Shown piece by piece: positions 1-26,268 of a stretch of 64,000 nt of DNA; position 1 is the first letter of the stretch; each line of letters starts with the position of its first letter. The notes beneath the pieces were generated by a model, which was given only the letters and a program-made list of their open reading frames with translations, was not told where the DNA came from and did not search any database. The position numbers and the translations under genes were made by a program. Source of the stretch: Paenibacillus andongensis (lineage in GTDB: Bacteria; Bacillota; Bacilli; Paenibacillales; NBRC-103111); assembly GCF_025369935.1 (NCBI RefSeq), contig NZ_CP104467.1:6021001-6085000 (forward strand), in the 5' to 3' direction.

Positions 1-2181
1 TCGATGCAAATAATGATTAACCGTCAGATAACCCTCTCCAGGGAATCCAGAATAAGATCCTACATACTGATCTACCTTTCTAATCTCATTTTGCATAATA
101 GCGGTTGTCTGAAAAACTTCTGTTGGAGACTGTGAGTACCGTGTTACGAATGTATCTGCATTAGGAACACCCATCGTGAAAAATTTTGAGAATCCCGATG
201 CCATGAATTCCATATACCTCTGCACCATTTCATATAACTTCGATGGCAAGGAGGCATTAGTAGCATCCATAGGAAAGTACTCGCCTTGCCACAACTTTAA
301 ATTCGGATGTGTGATTTTAGCCTGAGCATAATCGCCTAGTACATCCGTAATTTGAGCAATCCCCTGATAGCCATGTACATTATAGATGTCATAGTATCCA
401 ACATAAGTTTCTTTCAAGGCATCTCTCATCATTTGGCGATCGGCAACCATGGAGAAACCGCTCGTTGTTACATACAGTTCCAAATTATTTCCCGTTTCCG
501 TCAAATACTCTGCCTTTACCTTTTGAGCCTGTTCATGAGCAATCTTCAGCATCAGAAAATATTGTTCCGTTGTCCCCGAGAAAGATGCTGGAGAGGACGG
601 AGGATGGAAGTTCACCTCATTTACGATTTCGTAGTATTTTACTTTGCCCGCGTATCGTTTCATCGTCTGATAAACGTAATTGGTCCAATCTGCACCTGTT
701 CCGGGGATCCCATTCTGATCTTGAATATCTTTGGAAACCCAGCGCTCCGGCGAGTATTGGTAACTTGACTGAAAACCTGCAGGTGGTATCTCGCTAAAAG
801 GCGGCCTTGCTGATGCCCAGTTCGAAGGATAACCCATTACGGCCAGTACATCTATGCCAGCATCAGTTGCAGCTTTTACATATTGATCCGTATGCTCCCA
901 AGTAAAATGCCCCTTCGTCGGCTCAATTTTATTCCATTGAAAAATCTTTGCATCATCCCAAGTACGAGTTGCGCTTGTATTGATCTTCTTCCATGGCGAA
1001 ATATCGTAGCTGTAGCTGGAGTGTGTCCCGTAATAATCAGCATAGACACCATCGGTAACTGTTGTGTCGTTCGTTGGTACTTTGGAAATTGCACTTCGAT
1101 AAACGATGGCGTCCATGGAAGTTGAGCTTACCGTTGCTTCTAAGTACCACAAACCTACTAATCCGTTTAACTGCGGTAACGTCAGCTCCTCCATCCGATA
1201 GGTGCCGTCCGCCGGGACAGTAACGGTCTTCTGTTCGGTAAACGAATTACCGTATGGATCGGTCGCTTTAATATTAACGGAGTAGAGTTTATCCGTATTT
1301 CCATAATTAACTGTCATCACAGGATAAACGGCTGCTTCATTACGGTAGAAAACCTCTTTCTCACTTCGGAATGCAGGTTTGACAACGCTGTACTGAGAGG
1401 ATGTATGCCAGGGGGTAATATATTTCTCCGATTGAATGGGCTGCCCCAGTGTGGCATCCGCCAGCAGAGCCGTGTCCACACCATGGGTAAAGGTGCTAGT
1501 GCTATGCTCCAATTCATTAGCCGCTAGCGCCCGAGTGGAAATTTTCACATTGGTAATGTTATAAGGGGCTCCCCTCTCTATCATAAATTCATAGGGCATG
1601 AATTTCTCCATCACGGCATTAACCGTGGTCGGCTGGCTGGTTAGCAAGACACCGTCCTTGTAGATGGCTGTGTAACCGCCAGCGCCCATTTTCCATGTAA
1701 AAGCAAGGTTAAAGGGCTGGCCGATGACATAGTCCAGCTGGTTCGGCTGCGCGTAAGCATTCGCTTCGTCGGTGGCCACCCCATTTCTCACGAAAAATCT
1801 AAGCGGCTGATCGTATGTCGACCCCGTCGGCCTTGCTTCGAGTTTTGGGATAAGGGCACTCATTAAAGTGAATCCCGGACCACTCTGTTCGGGAATCAAT
1901 CGAAATAAGAAGTCATACTCGCTTCCAAAATCCGAATAGGGCTTATCAATACGCGCTGTCAGCTCAATTGTCCCTTCACTCGGGTTGATGATGCCCGGAG
2001 CGAAATCGCGGTACCATGTTGCAGTATTGGTGAAGTTGTCCGTTTCACCGTCTGCGGAAGCTGATGGTACGACCATCAAACACGCAGCAAGTAAGGTAGC
2101 AGATATAAGAAACATCATACATATCGATATTTTGAGCAAGCGGTATCTTCCAACTAAATCCGGAAATATTCTATACGCCAT
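1..2181 (-). CDS. Secreted clan-A glycoside hydrolase, 3' end outside window
   Basis: An open reading frame of 727 codons runs from an ATG at 2181 (ribosome binding site GGAGGTG) to the window edge without a stop, so the C-terminus is missing. The first 45 residues form a signal peptide (basic start, long hydrophobic stretch, ASA cleavage site). Residues about 45-240 look like a beta-sandwich carbohydrate-binding region. Residues about 400-700 look like a TIM-barrel glycosidase of the GH-A clan (GH39/GH5/GH10-like): WDDAKIFQWNKIEP is followed by ITNV-type strands, the acid/base candidate E522 in IVNEVN, and the nucleophile candidate E634 in WQGEYF. Family and substrate cannot be fixed by eye. 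It sits beside a YesMN pair and a sugar ABC importer, so extracellular polysaccharide breakdown is a reasonable role. Confidence 0.8.
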   Translation of the reverse strand, partial: MAYRIFPDLVGRYRLLKISICMMFLISATLLAACLMVVPSASADGETDNFTNTATWYRDFAPGIINPSEGTIELTARIDKPYSDFGSEYDFLFRLIPEQSGPGFTLMSALIPKLEARPTGSTYDQPLRFFVRNGVATDEANAYAQPNQLDYVIGQPFNLAFTWKMGAGGYTAIYKDGVLLTSQPTTVNAVMEKFMPYEFMIERGAPYNITNVKISTRALAANELEHSTSTFTHGVDTALLADATLGQPIQSEKYITPWHTSSQYSVVKPAFRSEKEVFYRNEAAVYPVMTVNYGNTDKLYSVNIKATDPYGNSFTEQKTVTVPADGTYRMEELTLPQLNGLVGLWYLEATVSSTSMDAIVYRSAISKVPTNDTTVTDGVYADYYGTHSSYSYDISPWKKINTSATRTWDDAKIFQWNKIEPTKGHFTWEHTDQYVKAATDAGIDVLAVMGYPSNWASARPPFSEIPPAGFQSSYQYSPERWVSKDIQDQNGIPGTGADWTNYVYQTMKRYAGKVKYYEIVNEVNFHPPSSPASFSGTTEQYFLMLKIAHEQAQKVKAEYLTETGNNLELYVTTSGFSMVADRQMMRDALKETYVGYYDIYNVHGYQGIAQITDVLGDYAQAKITHPNLKLWQGEYFPMDATNASLPSKLYEMVQRYMEFMASGFSKFFTMGVPNADTFVTRYSQSPTEVFQTTAIMQNEIRKVDQYVGSYSGFPGEGYLTVNHYLHR

Positions 2182-2530: not shown

Positions 2531-4333
2531 TTACGAGTACGAGGGTGACTTTGGGATAGCTAGCATCTGAGGCTTAAGTTTCGCTACTGCTCGACAACCT
2601 GATCCTGGCTGGCTAAAAAACTGCAGACCACATTCCTCACCATAATGAACCTGGATTCGTTGATTTACACTTTTCACGCCATAACCGCGAGTTTCTATTT
2701 CTAAAACCCCCTTCAATTGCTCTTCTGTCATTCCGATACCATCATCACTTACCTCCAAATATACATATTTTTCCTGTTGATATGCCCTAACCGTGATGAT
2801 ACCCGCCTTACCTGGTTTAGGTCTAATACCATGAATGACAGCGTTCTCAACTAAAGGCTGCAGAATCATCTTGATAATCACAACGCCCGCAATCCCCTCT
2901 TCGATATCGGTCTCAAACCGGATTGCTCCGCGATAACGATAATTGATAATGTGCATATAACGGCTGACCTCTTCTACTTCCTCGGACAGTCTTATATGCT
3001 CTTTGCCCTCGTTTAGGCTGAGCCGAAGAAACTTGGCCAGGGATTCCGTAATTTCTGCAATTTCCTTCGCATCAATGCGTAGGGCACTCCATTGGATGAT
3101 ATCAAGCGTGTTGTATAGAAAATGTGGATTGATCTGCGCATACAGCAGCTTCATCTCTGTCTCCTGCTTGCTAATTTTCACCTGATACACTTCTTCTATT
3201 AATGCTTTGGTCGTCATACTCATCTGGTTAAAAGAACGCTGCAATCGAGCATACTCATCATTACCACGAATATTTGTTTCCGTTTCAAATTGTCCTACAT
3301 CGGCAAGTTTAATTAAACGAATAAGCTTCTTTAGGCGCTTAGTAATAGAGCCTGAAATGAAAAAAGCAGTAATAATGGCAAGAATCGAAACGAATGCAGC
3401 CAAGGCGAACATGAAATTTTGAATGGATCTACTATTCATGCCCAGATGCTGCTCGGTCATCAGTAGAGAAATATTCCAGTCCAACCCGCTCAACTTGCTA
3501 TTGACTGCATAATAAGTACCTAAACCGGGACCGAAATGGGTGATCCCTTCCTGACGGGTGGGCAACGAGGACAAAAACTGCTGTTCCAACTTGACATCAC
3601 CCAAGGGGAGATGCTTGACTCCGATCCTTACACCACCTGTGTGCACTAACGTTTCTGCTCCATCAGGAAGCCTTAGATCGTTAAGAATATCCCAAATGAA
3701 CTTCGAATCAAGCTCAATCATCACATAACCAAGTATTTGTTGGATATGGTTGATATCGTGAATTTCTTTAATAAAGAGCACCTCGTCTGCTTGTGCTAAT
3801 TGTAAGTGCTGAATCACATCAGCATGAAACCAGGCTTGCTTCTTGCTCTCATTCAGCAATGGCTTTATTGCAGAATCCTTTTCAAGCTCCCCTATGCTGA
3901 AAAAATTCGGATTTGCTGATAGGAATGCCGGATTGCCCTTCATAAAAAAGCTCACCTTAAGTACATTTCTTTTCCCTTCATAATTGGTAACATTTTTATT
4001 GAGCACATTGAAGAAATCGATAACTTCGGCCGAAGTCAGTTGACGTTCGGCTACAGTTTGCAATACCTTTTGAATATCATAATTACTTTGCGCCAAATCT
4101 GCGATATCATAACCCACGTCAAGTCCAAATGCTACATTCTTCTCCGCTTGCTTAAGCGCTTCTAGATACGCGTTTCCGGTTTGCTCCACAACCGACTTGT
4201 GAATCGTTGTATAGGTGAAATAAACCAGCAAGAAAACCGGAACAATGATCAGAATTAAATAGGAGAAGACTAGTTTCGTGCGCAAATTGAGATTGTAATA
4301 GAACCCGCTCAGTACATCCGCTAATTTTCTCAT
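2531..4333 (-). CDS. YesM-type sensor histidine kinase
   Basis: A 600-residue membrane sensor kinase. Membrane segments lie at about 20-42 and 305-327, enclosing an extracellular sensing domain of roughly 260 residues. A HAMP linker follows (about 328-380), then the His_kinase family motif QINPHFLYNTL with phospho-acceptor H404, then a HATPase domain with an N box (PLVENAVIHG) and G box (DDGIGM). The ATG overlaps the stop of the response regulator gene by one base, so the two are translationally coupled. In Paenibacillus and Bacillus such pairs usually sense plant or bacterial glycan fragments and control a neighbouring sugar importer. The ABC genes just upstream are the likely targets. Confidence 0.92.
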   Translation of the reverse strand: MRKLADVLSGFYYNLNLRTKLVFSYLILIIVPVFLLVYFTYTTIHKSVVEQTGNAYLEALKQAEKNVAFGLDVGYDIADLAQSNYDIQKVLQTVAERQLTSAEVIDFFNVLNKNVTNYEGKRNVLKVSFFMKGNPAFLSANPNFFSIGELEKDSAIKPLLNESKKQAWFHADVIQHLQLAQADEVLFIKEIHDINHIQQILGYVMIELDSKFIWDILNDLRLPDGAETLVHTGGVRIGVKHLPLGDVKLEQQFLSSLPTRQEGITHFGPGLGTYYAVNSKLSGLDWNISLLMTEQHLGMNSRSIQNFMFALAAFVSILAIITAFFISGSITKRLKKLIRLIKLADVGQFETETNIRGNDEYARLQRSFNQMSMTTKALIEEVYQVKISKQETEMKLLYAQINPHFLYNTLDIIQWSALRIDAKEIAEITESLAKFLRLSLNEGKEHIRLSEEVEEVSRYMHIINYRYRGAIRFETDIEEGIAGVVIIKMILQPLVENAVIHGIRPKPGKAGIITVRAYQQEKYVYLEVSDDGIGMTEEQLKGVLEIETRGYGVKSVNQRIQVHYGEECGLQFFSQPGSGCRAVAKLKPQMLAIPKSPSYS

Positions 4334-19280: not shown

Positions 19281-20588
19281 TCAACTAACCAAAAACCCAA
19301 CTTTTACATTTGAATCTTCTTTCATCCATGACATCGTTTGCCCTTTATGCAGATCCGACTTCATCGATTTCACCAGCTTCTCAATATTCACGCTTTGCTC
19401 ATAATGCCTATGAAGCGCAGCCGATACATACAATTCATTTAACTGGGCAAAAGTAAACCCTTCCGTTTGTTTCGCCGTTACTCGAATCAACTCTTCGCTC
19501 AGAAGCTTCCCTATCCCCTTTTGTTCTAAATAGATTTGTCTCAGCTCTAAATCTGGAAGCTTGATTTCATAAGCACGGTCGAATCTCCCTGCCCGGTTCA
19601 TAAGTGCCGGATCAATTTGCTCCGGATAATTCGTTGTCCCAATGAGGAAAATGCCTTCTTTGGAAGTCGCGCCATCCAAAATGTTCAAAAAGTACGACCT
19701 CGCCCGCTGAGGCATAGCGTCGATATCCTCAATAACAAGAATCATTGGCGCCATGTTCGCCGCAGCTTGAAACACCTCTTGAATAGATTCGCTACCCGTA
19801 TTCTCCGTTATTTGCCAATAAGCAACAGGAGCCTTCACACTGCCGGCAATCGATTTGACTAGCGTCGTTTTTCCATTGCCAGGTTTGCCGTAAAGCAAAA
19901 CACCTCTTTTGTAAGGAAGCTGATACTCTTTGAAAAAAGCACGATCCTCAGCAAAAAACTGATCGATAGAGCGATAAATATCAGTCTTCACTTCGTCTTT
20001 CATAATGACCTCCGAACGGTCGACCATGCGTGTAATAGGAGCTAATTCCTTCTCCATGCCATGAGGGCCATCCGTGAAAACAGTCACTTGTCTTCGGTCC
20101 AAATCCCTACGCCGCTGCCGGGCATGTTCTAAAAAACAGAGCAGACTCTCATCATCCACAGCAAAAACAAAATCCTCTTCTCCAACGCCATTCATACGAA
20201 AGATAGGCACTCTAGCTAATGCGATTCCCCAGGATGGGTAAGCGAAAACGTTATTGCGCAGTGTAGGAAACGTCCGATAGGCCGATACTTCACTTTCCGC
20301 ATCCATTCCGAATGCACGTGATTCCATATGGTCGAAGATTCTAGTGACGAAATGCACATCATCACTGCCGGTTTTCACATCCTGCTCCAACAGCTCCCAA
20401 TACTCTTCTTTCCTGTCATCACTCAGATAAGCTTCAAAATGCTGTTCATATTTATCACTAAGCACATTTTGAATGCGTTCCAGCACATAGGCATAGTCCC
20501 TATATGCTGAAAGCGAGCGGCCTTCCGACCTATTCGAAAATGTTACTACTGCTGATTCCTCCAAACTTACTCCCTGAAAATAATTCAT
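19281..20588 (-). CDS. AAA ATPase linked to RtcB
   Basis: A 435-residue protein with one AAA module: Walker A GKPGNGKTT (234-242), Walker B LVIEDID (284-290), sensor-1 N320 and arginine-finger region AGRFDR (333-338). The first 200 residues are a family-specific N-terminal domain without a motif recognisable by eye. The AAA core resembles BCS1/proteasome-type unfoldases. Its ATG overlaps the rtcB1 stop by 4 nt (ATGA), so it is translated with the ligase. It may remodel an RNP or protein during RNA repair, but no function is established from sequence. Confidence 0.85.
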   Translation of the reverse strand: MNYFQGVSLEESAVVTFSNRSEGRSLSAYRDYAYVLERIQNVLSDKYEQHFEAYLSDDRKEEYWELLEQDVKTGSDDVHFVTRIFDHMESRAFGMDAESEVSAYRTFPTLRNNVFAYPSWGIALARVPIFRMNGVGEEDFVFAVDDESLLCFLEHARQRRRDLDRRQVTVFTDGPHGMEKELAPITRMVDRSEVIMKDEVKTDIYRSIDQFFAEDRAFFKEYQLPYKRGVLLYGKPGNGKTTLVKSIAGSVKAPVAYWQITENTGSESIQEVFQAAANMAPMILVIEDIDAMPQRARSYFLNILDGATSKEGIFLIGTTNYPEQIDPALMNRAGRFDRAYEIKLPDLELRQIYLEQKGIGKLLSEELIRVTAKQTEGFTFAQLNELYVSAALHRHYEQSVNIEKLVKSMKSDLHKGQTMSWMKEDSNVKVGFLVS

Positions 20589-22006
20589 TTAGCACCTTTT
20601 ACTGCCGCCATGGGCTTACATTTAGCTACAACCTCAGCCAATCCCGCTCCGACAACACTTTCAATAATTTGATCTACATCTTTATAAGCTTGAGGTGATT
20701 CATCTAGAATTGACTCTAACGACCTTTGGTTAACAACAATTTCCTCATCCGTACCTACTCGCATGGAAGAGGCAAATTCATTTAAAGTTATCAATCTTTT
20801 CGTCGCGCTGCGCGAGCGAATTCGTCCTGCACCATGACAGATGGAGTGAAAGTTGGCTTTGCCGCCTGGGGCTCCTACCATGATGTAGGATGCTGTCCCC
20901 ATTGAACCGGGAATCAACGCTGGGTGACCTGTATTTAAATAAGGCTGCGGATTGCTTGAATGGCCTGCCGGAAGCGACCTCGTCGCCCCTTTGCGATGCA
21001 CAAAATAGGACTCCCCCTCATGCTTTTCCTCCCAAGCATAGTTATGCATGAGATCATAAAGCGTCGTCATTTCAAACTTCGACCCAAACACATCCTTACC
21101 AGCCTCACGAATGGCATAGGCAATGAGATGGCGGTTTACAACCGCATAATTGAGCGCTGAATACATCAAATTTACATAAGTCTGAGCTGTCGGATGATCT
21201 AATGGCGCAAATAGCAGCTTTGGATCCGCTGTTCCTAATCCGTTCATCCGCATGACCTTCATCATATCATTGCTGCAATATTGACTCACAGAGCCACCCC
21301 ATGCACGCGAGCCCGAATGAATCATAATGACCACTTGACCATCAAATAGTCCCCATGCTTCAGCCACCTCACGGTTCTCTTCCGCAATCTCTATGGATTG
21401 AATCTCCGCAAAATGGTTCCCATTCCCAAGCGTCCCCAGCTGGCGATGTGACCGATGCCATACGTTGTCCGGAAATCGATTCAATGCATTTTCATCCAAA
21501 GTAAATTTGCTGCTTTCTACATGTGTAAGCGAAGTCGCCTTGCGCGGCGTATAGCCGTCGGGAATATACTTCTTTGAAAGTCCGTGCAGCCCTTTGGTGA
21601 CGATGTGTTCCAATCGGATGTCCGAGAAATGTCCACGTACGTGGTCTTCCACGGGTAAGTACTTCTCGATCGTCTTCACCAGCTTGCGGCGCAGCTTCAC
21701 ATCCTTCAGGTCAGCCTTGTGCAAATTCGTCATATGCACCTTCATGCCACAGCCAATATCGCTACCGACAATGGACGGTGATACATATCCGTCATGCGTA
21801 TTCCATACTGCTGTCGTGCCTATGCAAGTACCAACACCAACGTGTACGTCAGGTGTATAGCTCATATACACTTGATTTGGAATCTGCAAATTGTTGTTAG
21901 CCATTTGAAAAACTTGATAATCCAAAGCTTTAAATAATTCAGGTCCTGCGTATACATGCACAACTCCCGATGGGAGCTGGACCTGTTGAATATAGTTTTC
22001 TTTCAT
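20585..22006 (-). CDS. rtcB: RtcB-type RNA ligase, copy 1
   Basis: A 473-residue RtcB ligase, which joins RNA 2',3'-cyclic phosphate or 3'-phosphate ends to 5'-OH ends using GTP and manganese. All active-site motifs are present: SDIGCGM (D83, C86), LGNGNHFAEI, MIHSGSRAWG and CHGAGRIRSR, the last carrying the His expected to be guanylylated. It sits between a nucleotidyltransferase gene (upstream, 15 nt gap to the start) and the AAA ATPase gene (4-nt overlap). A second RtcB paralogue lies at 24736-26154. No RtcA or archease gene was seen in the window. Confidence 0.95.
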   Translation of the reverse strand: MKENYIQQVQLPSGVVHVYAGPELFKALDYQVFQMANNNLQIPNQVYMSYTPDVHVGVGTCIGTTAVWNTHDGYVSPSIVGSDIGCGMKVHMTNLHKADLKDVKLRRKLVKTIEKYLPVEDHVRGHFSDIRLEHIVTKGLHGLSKKYIPDGYTPRKATSLTHVESSKFTLDENALNRFPDNVWHRSHRQLGTLGNGNHFAEIQSIEIAEENREVAEAWGLFDGQVVIMIHSGSRAWGGSVSQYCSNDMMKVMRMNGLGTADPKLLFAPLDHPTAQTYVNLMYSALNYAVVNRHLIAYAIREAGKDVFGSKFEMTTLYDLMHNYAWEEKHEGESYFVHRKGATRSLPAGHSSNPQPYLNTGHPALIPGSMGTASYIMVGAPGGKANFHSICHGAGRIRSRSATKRLITLNEFASSMRVGTDEEIVVNQRSLESILDESPQAYKDVDQIIESVVGAGLAEVVAKCKPMAAVKGAK

Positions 22007-22021: not shown

Positions 22022-22807
22022 CTACGAACCCCAAACCTCCCTCAGCGCATCTCGGAATAAAGCATCTAATGCTGCTTCTTGCTTTTCTCCAGAGACCGCG
22101 ATATGTTTGGCAGTTTCTTCAAAATAAGCGATTTGTCGATCTAAATAGTCGTTGATTACTGTAATTTTCGGCTCTAAGTCGAACTCGACGCCAGCCTTCT
22201 TACGCGTCAACAACGTATATACTTCTTGTTTTAATTTCGATTCCGGCAGCATTTGCTCCACCAGATCCTCAAAATCCATCGGCGGCATGCTGCCGCGCTC
22301 TTCAATCCACTGGCAAGCTAGTATTGGCCGCAACACATAGAAATACTTTTTGATTTTCACATACTCACCCTGCAAATATTCCCGAAAGTTCCCTTTGGCC
22401 ATATGCAAATAGTGGTACATACTGGACCGTGGAGAAAAAGTTAACGGTGAAAGCTCGCGGATTTTCTCCGTTACACCGTATTGCTCCAAATATTGAATCG
22501 GAGACTGCAGCCATTCGAGTAAGGGCGGGTTCGATTTCCGAAACAAGTTCAGTGCCTTTTTCAAATCCCAACCGTTAATGTCGAGCTGATCGCTGATCGG
22601 ACGCTCAATAACATCTCGTTTCTCGAATAGAGATAAGTACCAGTCTACGGGTCTTACATAGATGAACCTCACATCATAATCACTGTCCTTCGAAGGAAAT
22701 CCCCAGGCTCTACTACCCGATTCACAAGCATAGAGGATCCGAACGCCTTCCTCTTGTTCAATTCGTTTAAGCTCACTATCTATTTTTCTCGTATCAAAAA
22801 ATGTCAT
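22022..22807 (-). CDS. COG3541-type nucleotidyltransferase
   Basis: About 261 residues. The N-terminal DNA-polymerase-beta-like nucleotidyltransferase signature is clear: GSRAWGFPSKDSDYDVRF, with the two catalytic Asp residues in DSDYD. The remainder is helical and matches the YcgL/COG3541 pattern in general layout. The ATG at 22807 was chosen because AGGGTGAG lies just upstream; the open frame extends to 22861 through a terminator hairpin, which is unlikely to be coding. It is the first gene of the nucleotidyltransferase-rtcB1-AAA operon. A role in adding nucleotides to damaged RNA ends before ligation is an inference from context. Confidence 0.85.
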   Translation of the reverse strand: MTFFDTRKIDSELKRIEQEEGVRILYACESGSRAWGFPSKDSDYDVRFIYVRPVDWYLSLFEKRDVIERPISDQLDINGWDLKKALNLFRKSNPPLLEWLQSPIQYLEQYGVTEKIRELSPLTFSPRSSMYHYLHMAKGNFREYLQGEYVKIKKYFYVLRPILACQWIEERGSMPPMDFEDLVEQMLPESKLKQEVYTLLTRKKAGVEFDLEPKITVINDYLDRQIAYFEETAKHIAVSGEKQEAALDALFRDALREVWGS

Positions 22808-22843
22808 GGGACTCACCCTTTCTTCGTATGATGTGGACGCAAA

Positions 22844-22874
22844 AAAGCCATAGACCAACATCGTCTACGGCTTT
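22844..22874 (-). terminator. Intrinsic terminator in the leader of the rtcB1 operon
   Basis: On the minus strand a 12-bp stem AAAGCCGTAGAC/GTCTATGGCTTT (one G-U pair) with a 7-nt loop is followed by a T run. It lies only about 37 nt before the nucleotidyltransferase ATG, downstream of a 29-codon ORF. No promoter fits between hairpin and gene, so operon expression seems to need read-through or antitermination. Confidence 0.8.
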
Positions 22875-22912
22875 ATCATGTCAAATTTAAACTAGGCCTA
22901 CTCAAGGAGTAC

Positions 22913-23002
22913 CTACGTATTCGTCATAAGTCCGGTTGAGACCGATGATATGCTTTGCTTTTCAATTGTCAGGTTATTCATAGAAATTTGATTGCGAATC
23001 AT
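22913..23002 (-). CDS. 29-residue peptide, candidate leader peptide
   Basis: A short ORF that starts with ATG at 23002, preceded by an excellent AAGGAGG at 7-nt spacing, and ends with TAG at 22913. It encodes a polar, Ser/Thr/Asn-rich peptide beginning MIRNQISMNNL and ending STGLMTNT; no family was recognised. It lies 26 nt behind the predicted transcription start of a strong promoter and about 39 nt ahead of a terminator. The arrangement suggests a leader peptide controlling the rtcB1 operon, or a free-standing micropeptide gene. Confidence 0.6.
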   Translation of the reverse strand: MIRNQISMNNLTIEKQSISSVSTGLMTNT

Positions 23003-23034
23003 TTCGTCGGCCTCCTTTCCATTCATTTACAAAC

Positions 23035-23064
23035 ATCATACGAGTCAAACCTAAGAACTGTCAA
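23035..23064 (-). promoter_or_regulatory. Strong sigma-A promoter of the rtcB1 leader
   Basis: A perfect -35 TTGACA (23059-23064) and -10 TATGAT (23035-23040) are separated by 18 nt on the minus strand. It is one of the best promoters in the window and drives the 29-codon ORF, then the attenuator-like hairpin and the nucleotidyltransferase-rtcB1-AAA genes. Confidence 0.8.
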
Positions 23065-24234: not shown

Positions 24235-24735
24235 GTTATACCTCCTTGAATAATGGATCACATATTTGGAGTCTTCCTGCAATTAGGGCGGAATTCTGCT
24301 TAAGAGTACAAGAAATGAATAACAGCCATTTGAAAATTAGTTGGAGTTGTCGAGTTTCACAATCAAACCGTTTATCGTCCAATTCTTAACAAACTTTTGT
24401 AAACATTCGTGTAATCGGTATCTGCAGACTGCATAGCCTTAGTGCAGTGTGCAATTTCAAAGCCACAGAAGACTCCAGTACGCGATCAATAGGGGATGTT
24501 TTTCGCTCGATTGAAGTCGAGTGCTCTACCACTGAGCTAATCGTTCCACACGATAGGGGATTCGAACCCCTGCACCAGGGGAATGCACGCCGAAATGAAC
24601 ATTACAGTATACAAACACATAGGGATGTGTGAGCACTGCCGGACTATTTGAAATCCTAGCCTTAGTAAAGTCATCCGTACATACATCCAAATTTATGATT
24701 ATACGTCCATTGACGTCTATCATCACTAGATTTTC
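24235..24735 (-). other. Long rtcB2-slipin intergenic region with structured RNA
   Basis: This 501-nt gap is too long for a simple operon junction. On the minus strand it holds a 6-bp hairpin (ACACAT/ATGTGT, near 24613-24630), a -10-like TATACT (24606-24611), the permuted tRNA-like core (24506-24571), and a second hairpin with arms ACTGCA/TGCAGT (near 24428-24448). The ribosome binding site of the slipin gene follows. No conserved ORF was recognised. Confidence 0.65.
24506..24571 (-). ncRNA. Circularly permuted tRNA-like RNA (YrlA-like candidate)
   Basis: Read on the minus strand, four tRNA-type arms follow each other without gaps. The T arm (24555-24571) has a 5-bp stem and canonical loop TTCGAAT. 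A closed acceptor hairpin (24540-24554) pairs ATCGT with ACGAT around GTGGA. TA follows, then a D arm (24523-24537) with stem GCTC/GAGC and loop AGTGGTA, and after one A an anticodon-like arm (24506-24521) with stem CTCGA/TCGAG and loop CTTCAA. The order is a circular permutation of tRNA, with the acceptor ends fused and no CCA. Bacterial Y RNAs of the YrlA type carry a tRNA-mimic module and often lie near rtcB. The true transcript ends and any outer Ro-binding stem could not be identified by eye. Confidence 0.75.
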
Positions 24736-26154: not shown

Positions 26155-26268
26155 TTGGTTAACCTCCGTTTTTCTTCTAAAGCTATCTTCGCTTATTTGA
26201 GATGGAGTGAACATGGTGAAAGTATGACGACAGGTGAAAAGTTTTCCATTTTCTCCATATCTCTCCCC

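Follow-up and report, generated by a model that had tools for sequence, protein, structure and literature searches.

The 64,000-nt stretch of DNA analyzed here (the window) carries a small RNA-repair operon preceded by a promoter, a short open reading frame (ORF) and a terminator, which raises the question of whether a ribosome on this leader decides if the repair genes behind it are transcribed. We regard it as probable, at roughly 0.6, that the leader is a ribosome-mediated transcription attenuator acting over RNA-repair genes throughout the Paenibacillales. An earlier note, made from the sequence alone, had described a strong promoter, a 29-codon ORF with a Shine-Dalgarno (SD) sequence and a 12-bp terminator about 37 nt before the nucleotidyltransferase ATG, and all three are present where it placed them (Table 1). 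The promoter is the best-scoring site across 9.7 kb in a promoter scan, with a predicted transcription start near 23028 on the minus strand. From the terminator stem to the RlaP ATG (22807) there are 36 nt and from the U-tract only 33 nt, too short a gap, as the note had argued, for a second promoter to fit. The 189-nt leader transcript folds at -50.0 kcal/mol, better than 200 shuffles (z = -3.35). A simple terminator scan did not report the leader hairpin, though this is conserved and readily seen in the sequence, and a search at up to 3 mismatches found this terminator to be unique in the genome. An Rfam 15 search of the leader with E values up to 5 gave no family match, neither a T-box nor another leader described in Rfam being recognized.

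Table 1. Features of the leader and of the operon behind it (window coordinates)
Feature	Position	Strand	Basis
Sigma-A type promoter of the leader, TTGACA-18-TATGAT	23035..23064	-	11/12 consensus bases
Promoter boxes: TTGACA, 18-nt spacer, TATGAT	23064-23059 and 23040-23035	-	sequence
Leader RNA element, full span of R1 and R2 model matches	22841..23030	-	covariance models
Outer P1 strand TGG (partner CCG, 22935-22933)	23019..23021	-	pairing in leader alignments
SD of leader ORF, AAAGGAGG	23011..23018	-	sequence
P1 5' strand (segment 1), GAGGCCGA, overlaps SD	23007..23014	-	covariation, swap test
Leader ORF, 29 codons and TAG (22915-22913), MIRNQISMNNLTIEKQSISSVSTGLMTNT	22913..23002	-	sequence
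P1 3' strand (segment 2), TCGGTCTC, near ORF 3' end	22938..22945	-	covariation, swap test
P2 hairpin, begins at leader stop codon	22893..22915	-	covariation
Terminator hairpin with U-tract to 22841	22841..22874	-	sequence, covariation, swap test
Terminator arms, 12-bp stem: segment 3 and segment 4	22874-22863 and 22855-22844	-	sequence
RlaP, RNA-repair nucleotidyltransferase, first gene behind leader	22022..22807	-	PF10127, E 7.7e-103
RtcB1, RNA ligase, behind leader	20585..22006	-	PF01139, E 4.3e-113
AAA ATPase, RtcB1 partner, behind leader	19281..20588	-	PF00004, E 2.2e-25

Upstream of the leader lie the genes of an SPFH protein and a second RtcB. Between these two genes we observed a YrlA Y-RNA-like RNA (24483-24572, minus strand; RF02553, scoring 32 bits against a cut-off of 69) that overlaps a tRNA-like match, and the same pair of matches occurs at 4229-4319 in another locus (L003). 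The Ro60/TROVE protein is absent from the window's genome, and a Y-RNA-like, tRNA-mimicking RNA is thus placed here in an RNA-repair operon without Ro60. The listed start of rtcB2 (26214) is probably located inside a promoter motif, GTCGTCATACTTTCACCATGTTC (26208-26230, minus strand), with 26154 as the likely start. This motif recurs before rlaP in many Paenibacillus loci, beside a divergent gene that begins like a WYL regulator, and is possibly a WYL-regulated promoter.

The nearest named genomes belong to Paenibacillus of the P. phytorum/P. alginolyticus group. Leader DNA was matched in 28 of 30 genomes of the GTDB genus at E ≤ 0.001, three of these matches (G002, G008 and G027) spanning about half of the leader or less. 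Across 18 leaders the mean column identity is 85%, and the 5' end and the SD region are among the most fixed parts. A first covariance model (R1), which has the window among its 27 training rows, scores the window leader at 229.5 bits and has matches in 11 of the 22 genera of the family (51 of 104 genomes); a second (R2), built from an alignment (A4) with no window row, still gives 194 bits and matches in 158 of 392 genomes of the order (27 of 49 genera; E up to 0.01). Judged by these model matches, the window region is one member of a family of structured leaders in the order Paenibacillales. In the class, 21 of 398 genomes matched at E up to 0.001, nine of them outside the order, and the three of these nine that were examined (L232, L233 and L237) were plain terminators without the SD or the helix P1 described below and were rejected as members. 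A weak model match at L038 was taken as chance.

For the comparison of flanking genes we used a set of 95 members, obtained from 99 matches (A5) after removal of three antisense or partial rows and of one row without an ORF (L226). The flanks were taken from the higher-scoring R1 and R2 matches, so that the weakest R2 matches lie outside this set, and the leaders of the genus enter it through some representatives only. Also left out were an element-like sequence before a GNAT acetyltransferase gene (L151), three loci in which P1 was not seen (L155, L220 and L227), a terminator alone after an SPFH gene (L159), a decayed copy before RlaP (L160), a near-copy of L214 before Hen1 (L217) and a match cut short before RtcB1 (L219).

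Within the genus, a near-full RtcB1 is encoded in 26 of 30 genomes (split in one), and all 26 have the leader element. Two genomes have neither (G016 and G029), the latter showing, besides a distant RtcB, no more than a weak match of terminator type. G027 retains only RtcB1 fragments, with a leader that lacks promoter, SD and ORF start, and G028 has the element before RlaP yet no RtcB1. Just upstream of the decayed leader of G027, after a DUF6847 gene, there is a tRNA-like stretch with GGTTCGAATCC (L104, approximately 1310-1400, plus strand); Rfam did not flag such a stretch at the same place in L160. Elsewhere, the leader terminator stands alone, without promoter or ORF, at two other contig places of one genome (G015; L110 at 1518 and L111 at 1516), the L110 copy lying directly behind an SPFH gene. 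Hairpins of the form TGGACG..GTCCA without a U-tract lie between the upstream gene and rlaP at L027 (approximately 5022) and L042 (approximately 5915), in species where the leader model gave no match.

That the leader is a cis element placed before RNA-repair genes, as the earlier note had it, is borne out across the family: promoter, SD, ORF and terminator are conserved, and the next gene is an RNA-repair gene in 91 of the 95 members. RtcB1 follows in 51 cases, RlaP in 24, Hen1 in 11, the AAA ATPase in three, and KptA and another RtcB in one each; gene names were confirmed on examples by Pfam (RtcB, RlaP, Hen1_N, AAA and PTS_2-RNA/KptA). Among members that were not used for building R2, the proportion is 56 of 59. 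The four members without a listed repair gene comprise one before TatD (L184), one before a 218-aa gene (L153), one before a gene of no named family (L212) and one at a contig edge (L230). The 218-aa protein is encoded directly behind the element (L153 3323-3979, plus strand), matches no Pfam or NCBIfam family, and has near it an RNaseH_like gene (PF04308) that is likewise present in the KptA locus (L156); it is a candidate RNA-repair gene.

The element is also found in varied positions relative to individual repair genes. Several genomes of the genus carry it directly before RtcB1 with no RlaP between, three loci directly before the AAA ATPase alone (L139, L192 and L223), and genome G046 has RtcB1 and the partner AAA ATPase at separate loci, each with an element of its own (L138 and L139). 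Two genomes (L026 and L034) show the order element, RtcB1, second element, RlaP, Hen1 and Pnkp, the last checked by family search; the genes before their first element we take, from names read off the sequence, to be those of NUDIX, PRPP synthetase and NAMPT, in this order. In 82 of 95 members, the 60 nt upstream contain a promoter-like site (at least 9 of 12 bases), compared with 6.6 expected from shuffles. The gap between terminator and gene is 60 nt or less in 57 of 91 members, and such genes can therefore be expressed from the leader promoter only by read-through. These data bear on the idea that the element is an independent small RNA or small-protein gene that merely adjoins the repair genes. 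It does possess its own promoter and terminator, and in some members the gap to the gene exceeds 100 nt and offers space for a second promoter, but its recurrence before RtcB1, RlaP, Hen1, AAA and KptA in separate settings, the short gaps in most members and a peptide that is not conserved make this idea hardly credible.

The central feature of the leader, absent from the earlier note, is a helix (P1) in which the leader's own SD strand, GAGGCCGA, pairs with TCGGTCTC inside the ORF, extended by the outer pairs TGG/CCG. In an alignment of 27 leaders, 12 of 34 pairs have changed on both sides, with 25 such cells compared with 8.0 ± 2.0 after shuffling. Among 36 diverse realigned members, whose alignment was fitted to the covariance model and hence leans towards it, 25 of 34 pairs have changed on both sides (125 cells compared with 42.8 ± 6.0 shuffled), and none of 500 shuffles reached as high. 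The outer P1 pairs are kept in 97.5% of cells in the 27 leaders and in 88.8% in the 36. For P2, 8 of 9 pairs have changed on both sides in the 27 leaders and 9 of 9 in the 36 (helices 3 and 4), and for the terminator 6 of 11 in the 36. In swap tests on 47 cluster representatives, P1 and the terminator came out as strongly cognate: pairing of the SD with its own segment 2 is 3.78 kcal better than swapped pairing (p ~1e-13, a value that, like the other p values from these representatives, is too small because the 47 share descent), and the cognate terminator arms are 6.02 kcal better. Pairing of segment 2 with the stretch that follows it, as an alternative small hairpin, was weak in the same representatives (p 0.09). 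Comparison of the leader sequences establishes P1, P2 and the terminator as structures, along with the geometry of the ORF and the link to RNA-repair genes.

A near-perfect SD, lying right after the start site and forming one strand of a highly conserved helix, could be taken to respond to failed initiation: ribosomes without an intact anti-Shine-Dalgarno would leave the SD free, P1 would form, and P1 would permit read-through. The re-ligation of a cleaved 16S 3' fragment by E. coli RtcB, reported in PMC7790460, would fit this reading. We nevertheless consider it improbable, as P1 neither overlaps nor competes with the terminator, which is unhindered in folds that contain P1.

We then turn to the strand that could compete with the terminator. 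The earlier note had pointed out that 22928-22947 is partly complementary to the terminator 5' arm, and segment 2 is the core of that strand. This complementarity is confirmed, with an energy lower than that of 96.5% of unrelated GC-matched Paenibacillales terminators. Across the representatives, own terminators fit segment 2 better than 108 unrelated GC-matched terminators from the same loci (mean z -0.97), with 13 of 47 below the 5th percentile and the window at the 3.5th. For the RNA as it is present before the terminator 3' arm is made, ensemble folds with the SD and start region masked gave a pairing of segment 2 with segment 3 (2:3) of 0.45 when the terminator was the leader's own and 0.24 when it was an unrelated one (p 2e-7; 36 of 47), compared with 0.27 and 0.20 (p 0.10) when unmasked; for the window the masked values are 0.57 and 0.17. 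The minimum free energy fold of the window with the SD masked had no 2:3 pairing, which appeared in the ensemble folds only. Covariation between segment 2 and the terminator 5' arm was not detected in the swap test (-0.44 kcal for cognate minus swapped pairing, p 0.47), nor did other choices of stretch reach significance; the test is weakened because both strands are themselves conserved. Folds of the whole transcript almost always end in the terminator, with and without masking (0.89 and 0.92), and 2:3 can therefore act only during transcription. Of the antiterminator proposed in the note, then, the preference over unrelated terminators and the gain from an occupied SD and start region stand and covariation does not, and the folding models make a 2:3 antiterminator likely.

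The same evidence has to be weighed against a simpler role for P1, namely that it only blocks the SD and allows the leader a single round of translation, while read-through is set by a leader-binding protein (perhaps a repair protein feeding back), by RNA polymerase pausing or by terminator leakiness. Such a role would agree with the strong covariation of P1 and the terminator, as opposed to 2:3, and with the terminator being the most stable state in whole-RNA folds. It would leave unexplained why segment 2 is better matched by its own terminator than by unrelated terminators, particularly when the SD is occupied, and why this segment stays within the ORF close to the stop, which a pure SD block would not need. 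On balance we regard this simpler role as unlikely and favor the ribosome-mediated attenuator.

Folding with a ribosome placed at successive codons specifies where it would have to stand for read-through. Over the 47 representatives, predicted 2:3 pairing is 0.45 with the ribosome at codons 1 and 3, 0.33 at codon 5, about 0.25 in the middle of the ORF and 0.13 at the stop codon. Without a ribosome it is 0.27 (0.30 for the window), so that some 2:3 is predicted here as well, and P1 formation is still incomplete when the decision falls (0.48; 0.53 for the window). The window itself gave 0.71 at codon 1, 0.74 at codon 3, 0.18 at codon 5, 0.30 to 0.59 in the middle and 0.00 at the stop, a curve that is not smooth, as it rises again at codon 14 (0.59). 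Progress past the first codons is predicted to restore termination, and the trigger would therefore be a ribosome kept on the start or close to it. The earlier proposal that ribosome progress or stalling decides read-through survives as a predicted ribosome-dependent switch, narrowed from a stall anywhere on the leader to one near its start.

An ORF that begins with ATG is present in 95 of 95 members (the ORF-less L226 having been left out beforehand) and is 18-56 codons long; a strong SD is found in 90, and segment 2 lies inside the ORF in 85, with the stop codon a median of 11 nt after its end (47 representatives). The motif of segment 2, CGGYC, was found in 62 of the 95 members and occupies frames 0, 1 and 2 in 11, 24 and 27 of them. 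With the frame varying and the peptides differing, what is conserved is the RNA and its position in a translated frame, and not the peptide. The conservation check suggested in the note thus speaks against a sequence-specific stall peptide. Across the family, the loop that separates the two strands of P1 is enriched, in varying frames, in the k-mers TGAATA and CTGAATA, which are often part of CAATTGAATA.

Composition of the ORF is relevant to an attenuator with control codons, in which chosen codons would stall the ribosome when one tRNA species is cut or uncharged. There is a mild excess in frame of Asn (10.3%, p 3e-5; other frames 6.5% and 5.0%) and of Gln (7.5%, p 0.01; other frames 4.9% and 5.0%). 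The Asn excess could, however, stem from the A-rich loop, for which the other frames are only a partial control, and the members show no run of one codon, no conserved codon position and widely differing peptides, which makes a codon-specific attenuator very unlikely.

Returning to the ribosome-mediated attenuator, we propose a four-segment leader in which segment 1 is the SD and start region, segment 2 lies near the ORF 3' end, and segments 3 and 4 are the terminator arms. P1 (1:2) would serve as anti-antiterminator and also as a block on re-initiation, 2:3 as antiterminator and 3:4 as terminator. With no ribosome on the leader, P1 would form and the terminator would stop transcription; a ribosome that has reached the stop codon would cover segment 2, so that the terminator would form again. 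A ribosome detained at the start, or within the first codons, would hide segment 1, and segment 2, thereby freed, would take the terminator 5' arm, letting RNA polymerase read into rtcB, rlaP, hen1 or kptA. Slow or crippled ribosomes would in this way induce repair without a protein sensor. Possible causes include cleavage of rRNA at the decoding site or of tRNAs in the anticodon loop, and inhibitors of initiation or early elongation. From the nature of the controlled genes, we infer that damaged ribosomes or tRNAs are the signal.

Elements of this scheme are familiar from other leaders. In the E. coli trp leader, the leader SD pairs with a later leader segment, as here, and Trp codons and the supply of the amino acid set the response, which distinguishes it from the present leader. 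A close likeness is the vmlR leader of Bacillus subtilis, which likewise comprises an upstream ORF, an anti-antiterminator, an antiterminator and an intrinsic terminator, is read through when a ribosome stalls on the ORF, the working proposed here, and is constitutively induced by ribosome assembly defects (PMC9226507). Its ORF is a tripeptide in the bulge of the first hairpin, with a single-stranded SD, and its target is an antibiotic-resistance ABCF, whereas here the ORF has 18-56 codons, the SD is itself the anti-antiterminator strand and the targets are RNA-repair enzymes. The ilvB and fthC uORF motifs resemble our leader in having a uORF with SD, a structured leader and a terminator, and for fthC the initiation rate has been suggested to matter; both concern other genera and genes, and ilvB relies on Ile, Leu and Val codons (PMC11109978). 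In a term search, the words rtcB, RNA repair and Paenibacillus were absent from the main text of two surveys of bacterial structured RNAs, including PMC11109978. Among titles and the openings of abstracts, with subscription papers mostly outside this search, we found no earlier description of such a leader for RtcB, RlaP, Hen1/Pnkp or KptA/WYL, which does not prove its absence from print.

RNA repair itself is under different control in Salmonella, where the rsr-yrlBA-rtcBA operon depends on RtcR and sigma-54, and the RtcR CARF domain, on binding tRNA fragments that end in a cyclic phosphate, activates transcription (PMC7790460). That operon is induced by damage to the translation machinery, the same trigger as proposed here, through a regulatory protein, in contrast to a leader RNA behind a sigma-A type promoter. 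In the parts of the literature covered, bacterial sensing of broken RNA has been shown only for RtcR-type operons.

Control by RNA before RNA ligase, nucleotidyltransferase, Hen1 and KptA genes would thus extend across a bacterial order, with a logic that can be tested in one reporter strain. The short translated leader probably lets the ribosome report damage and switch on repair. Tentatively, the damaged ribosome itself may be the ligand of an RNA-only repair regulon, which would be the first described. If this is true, ribosomes that are damaged at the decoding site or have no usable tRNA would bind the leader SD and stay at the first codons, and a ribosome holding one strand of a hairpin would turn on the enzymes that mend ribosomes and tRNAs; one type of leader would then coordinate RtcB, RlaP, Hen1 and KptA operons across the order. 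The leader can also serve as a marker, in that a gene of unknown function behind it becomes a candidate RNA-repair factor, and the signal that calls RNA repair in these Gram-positive bacteria becomes directly testable.
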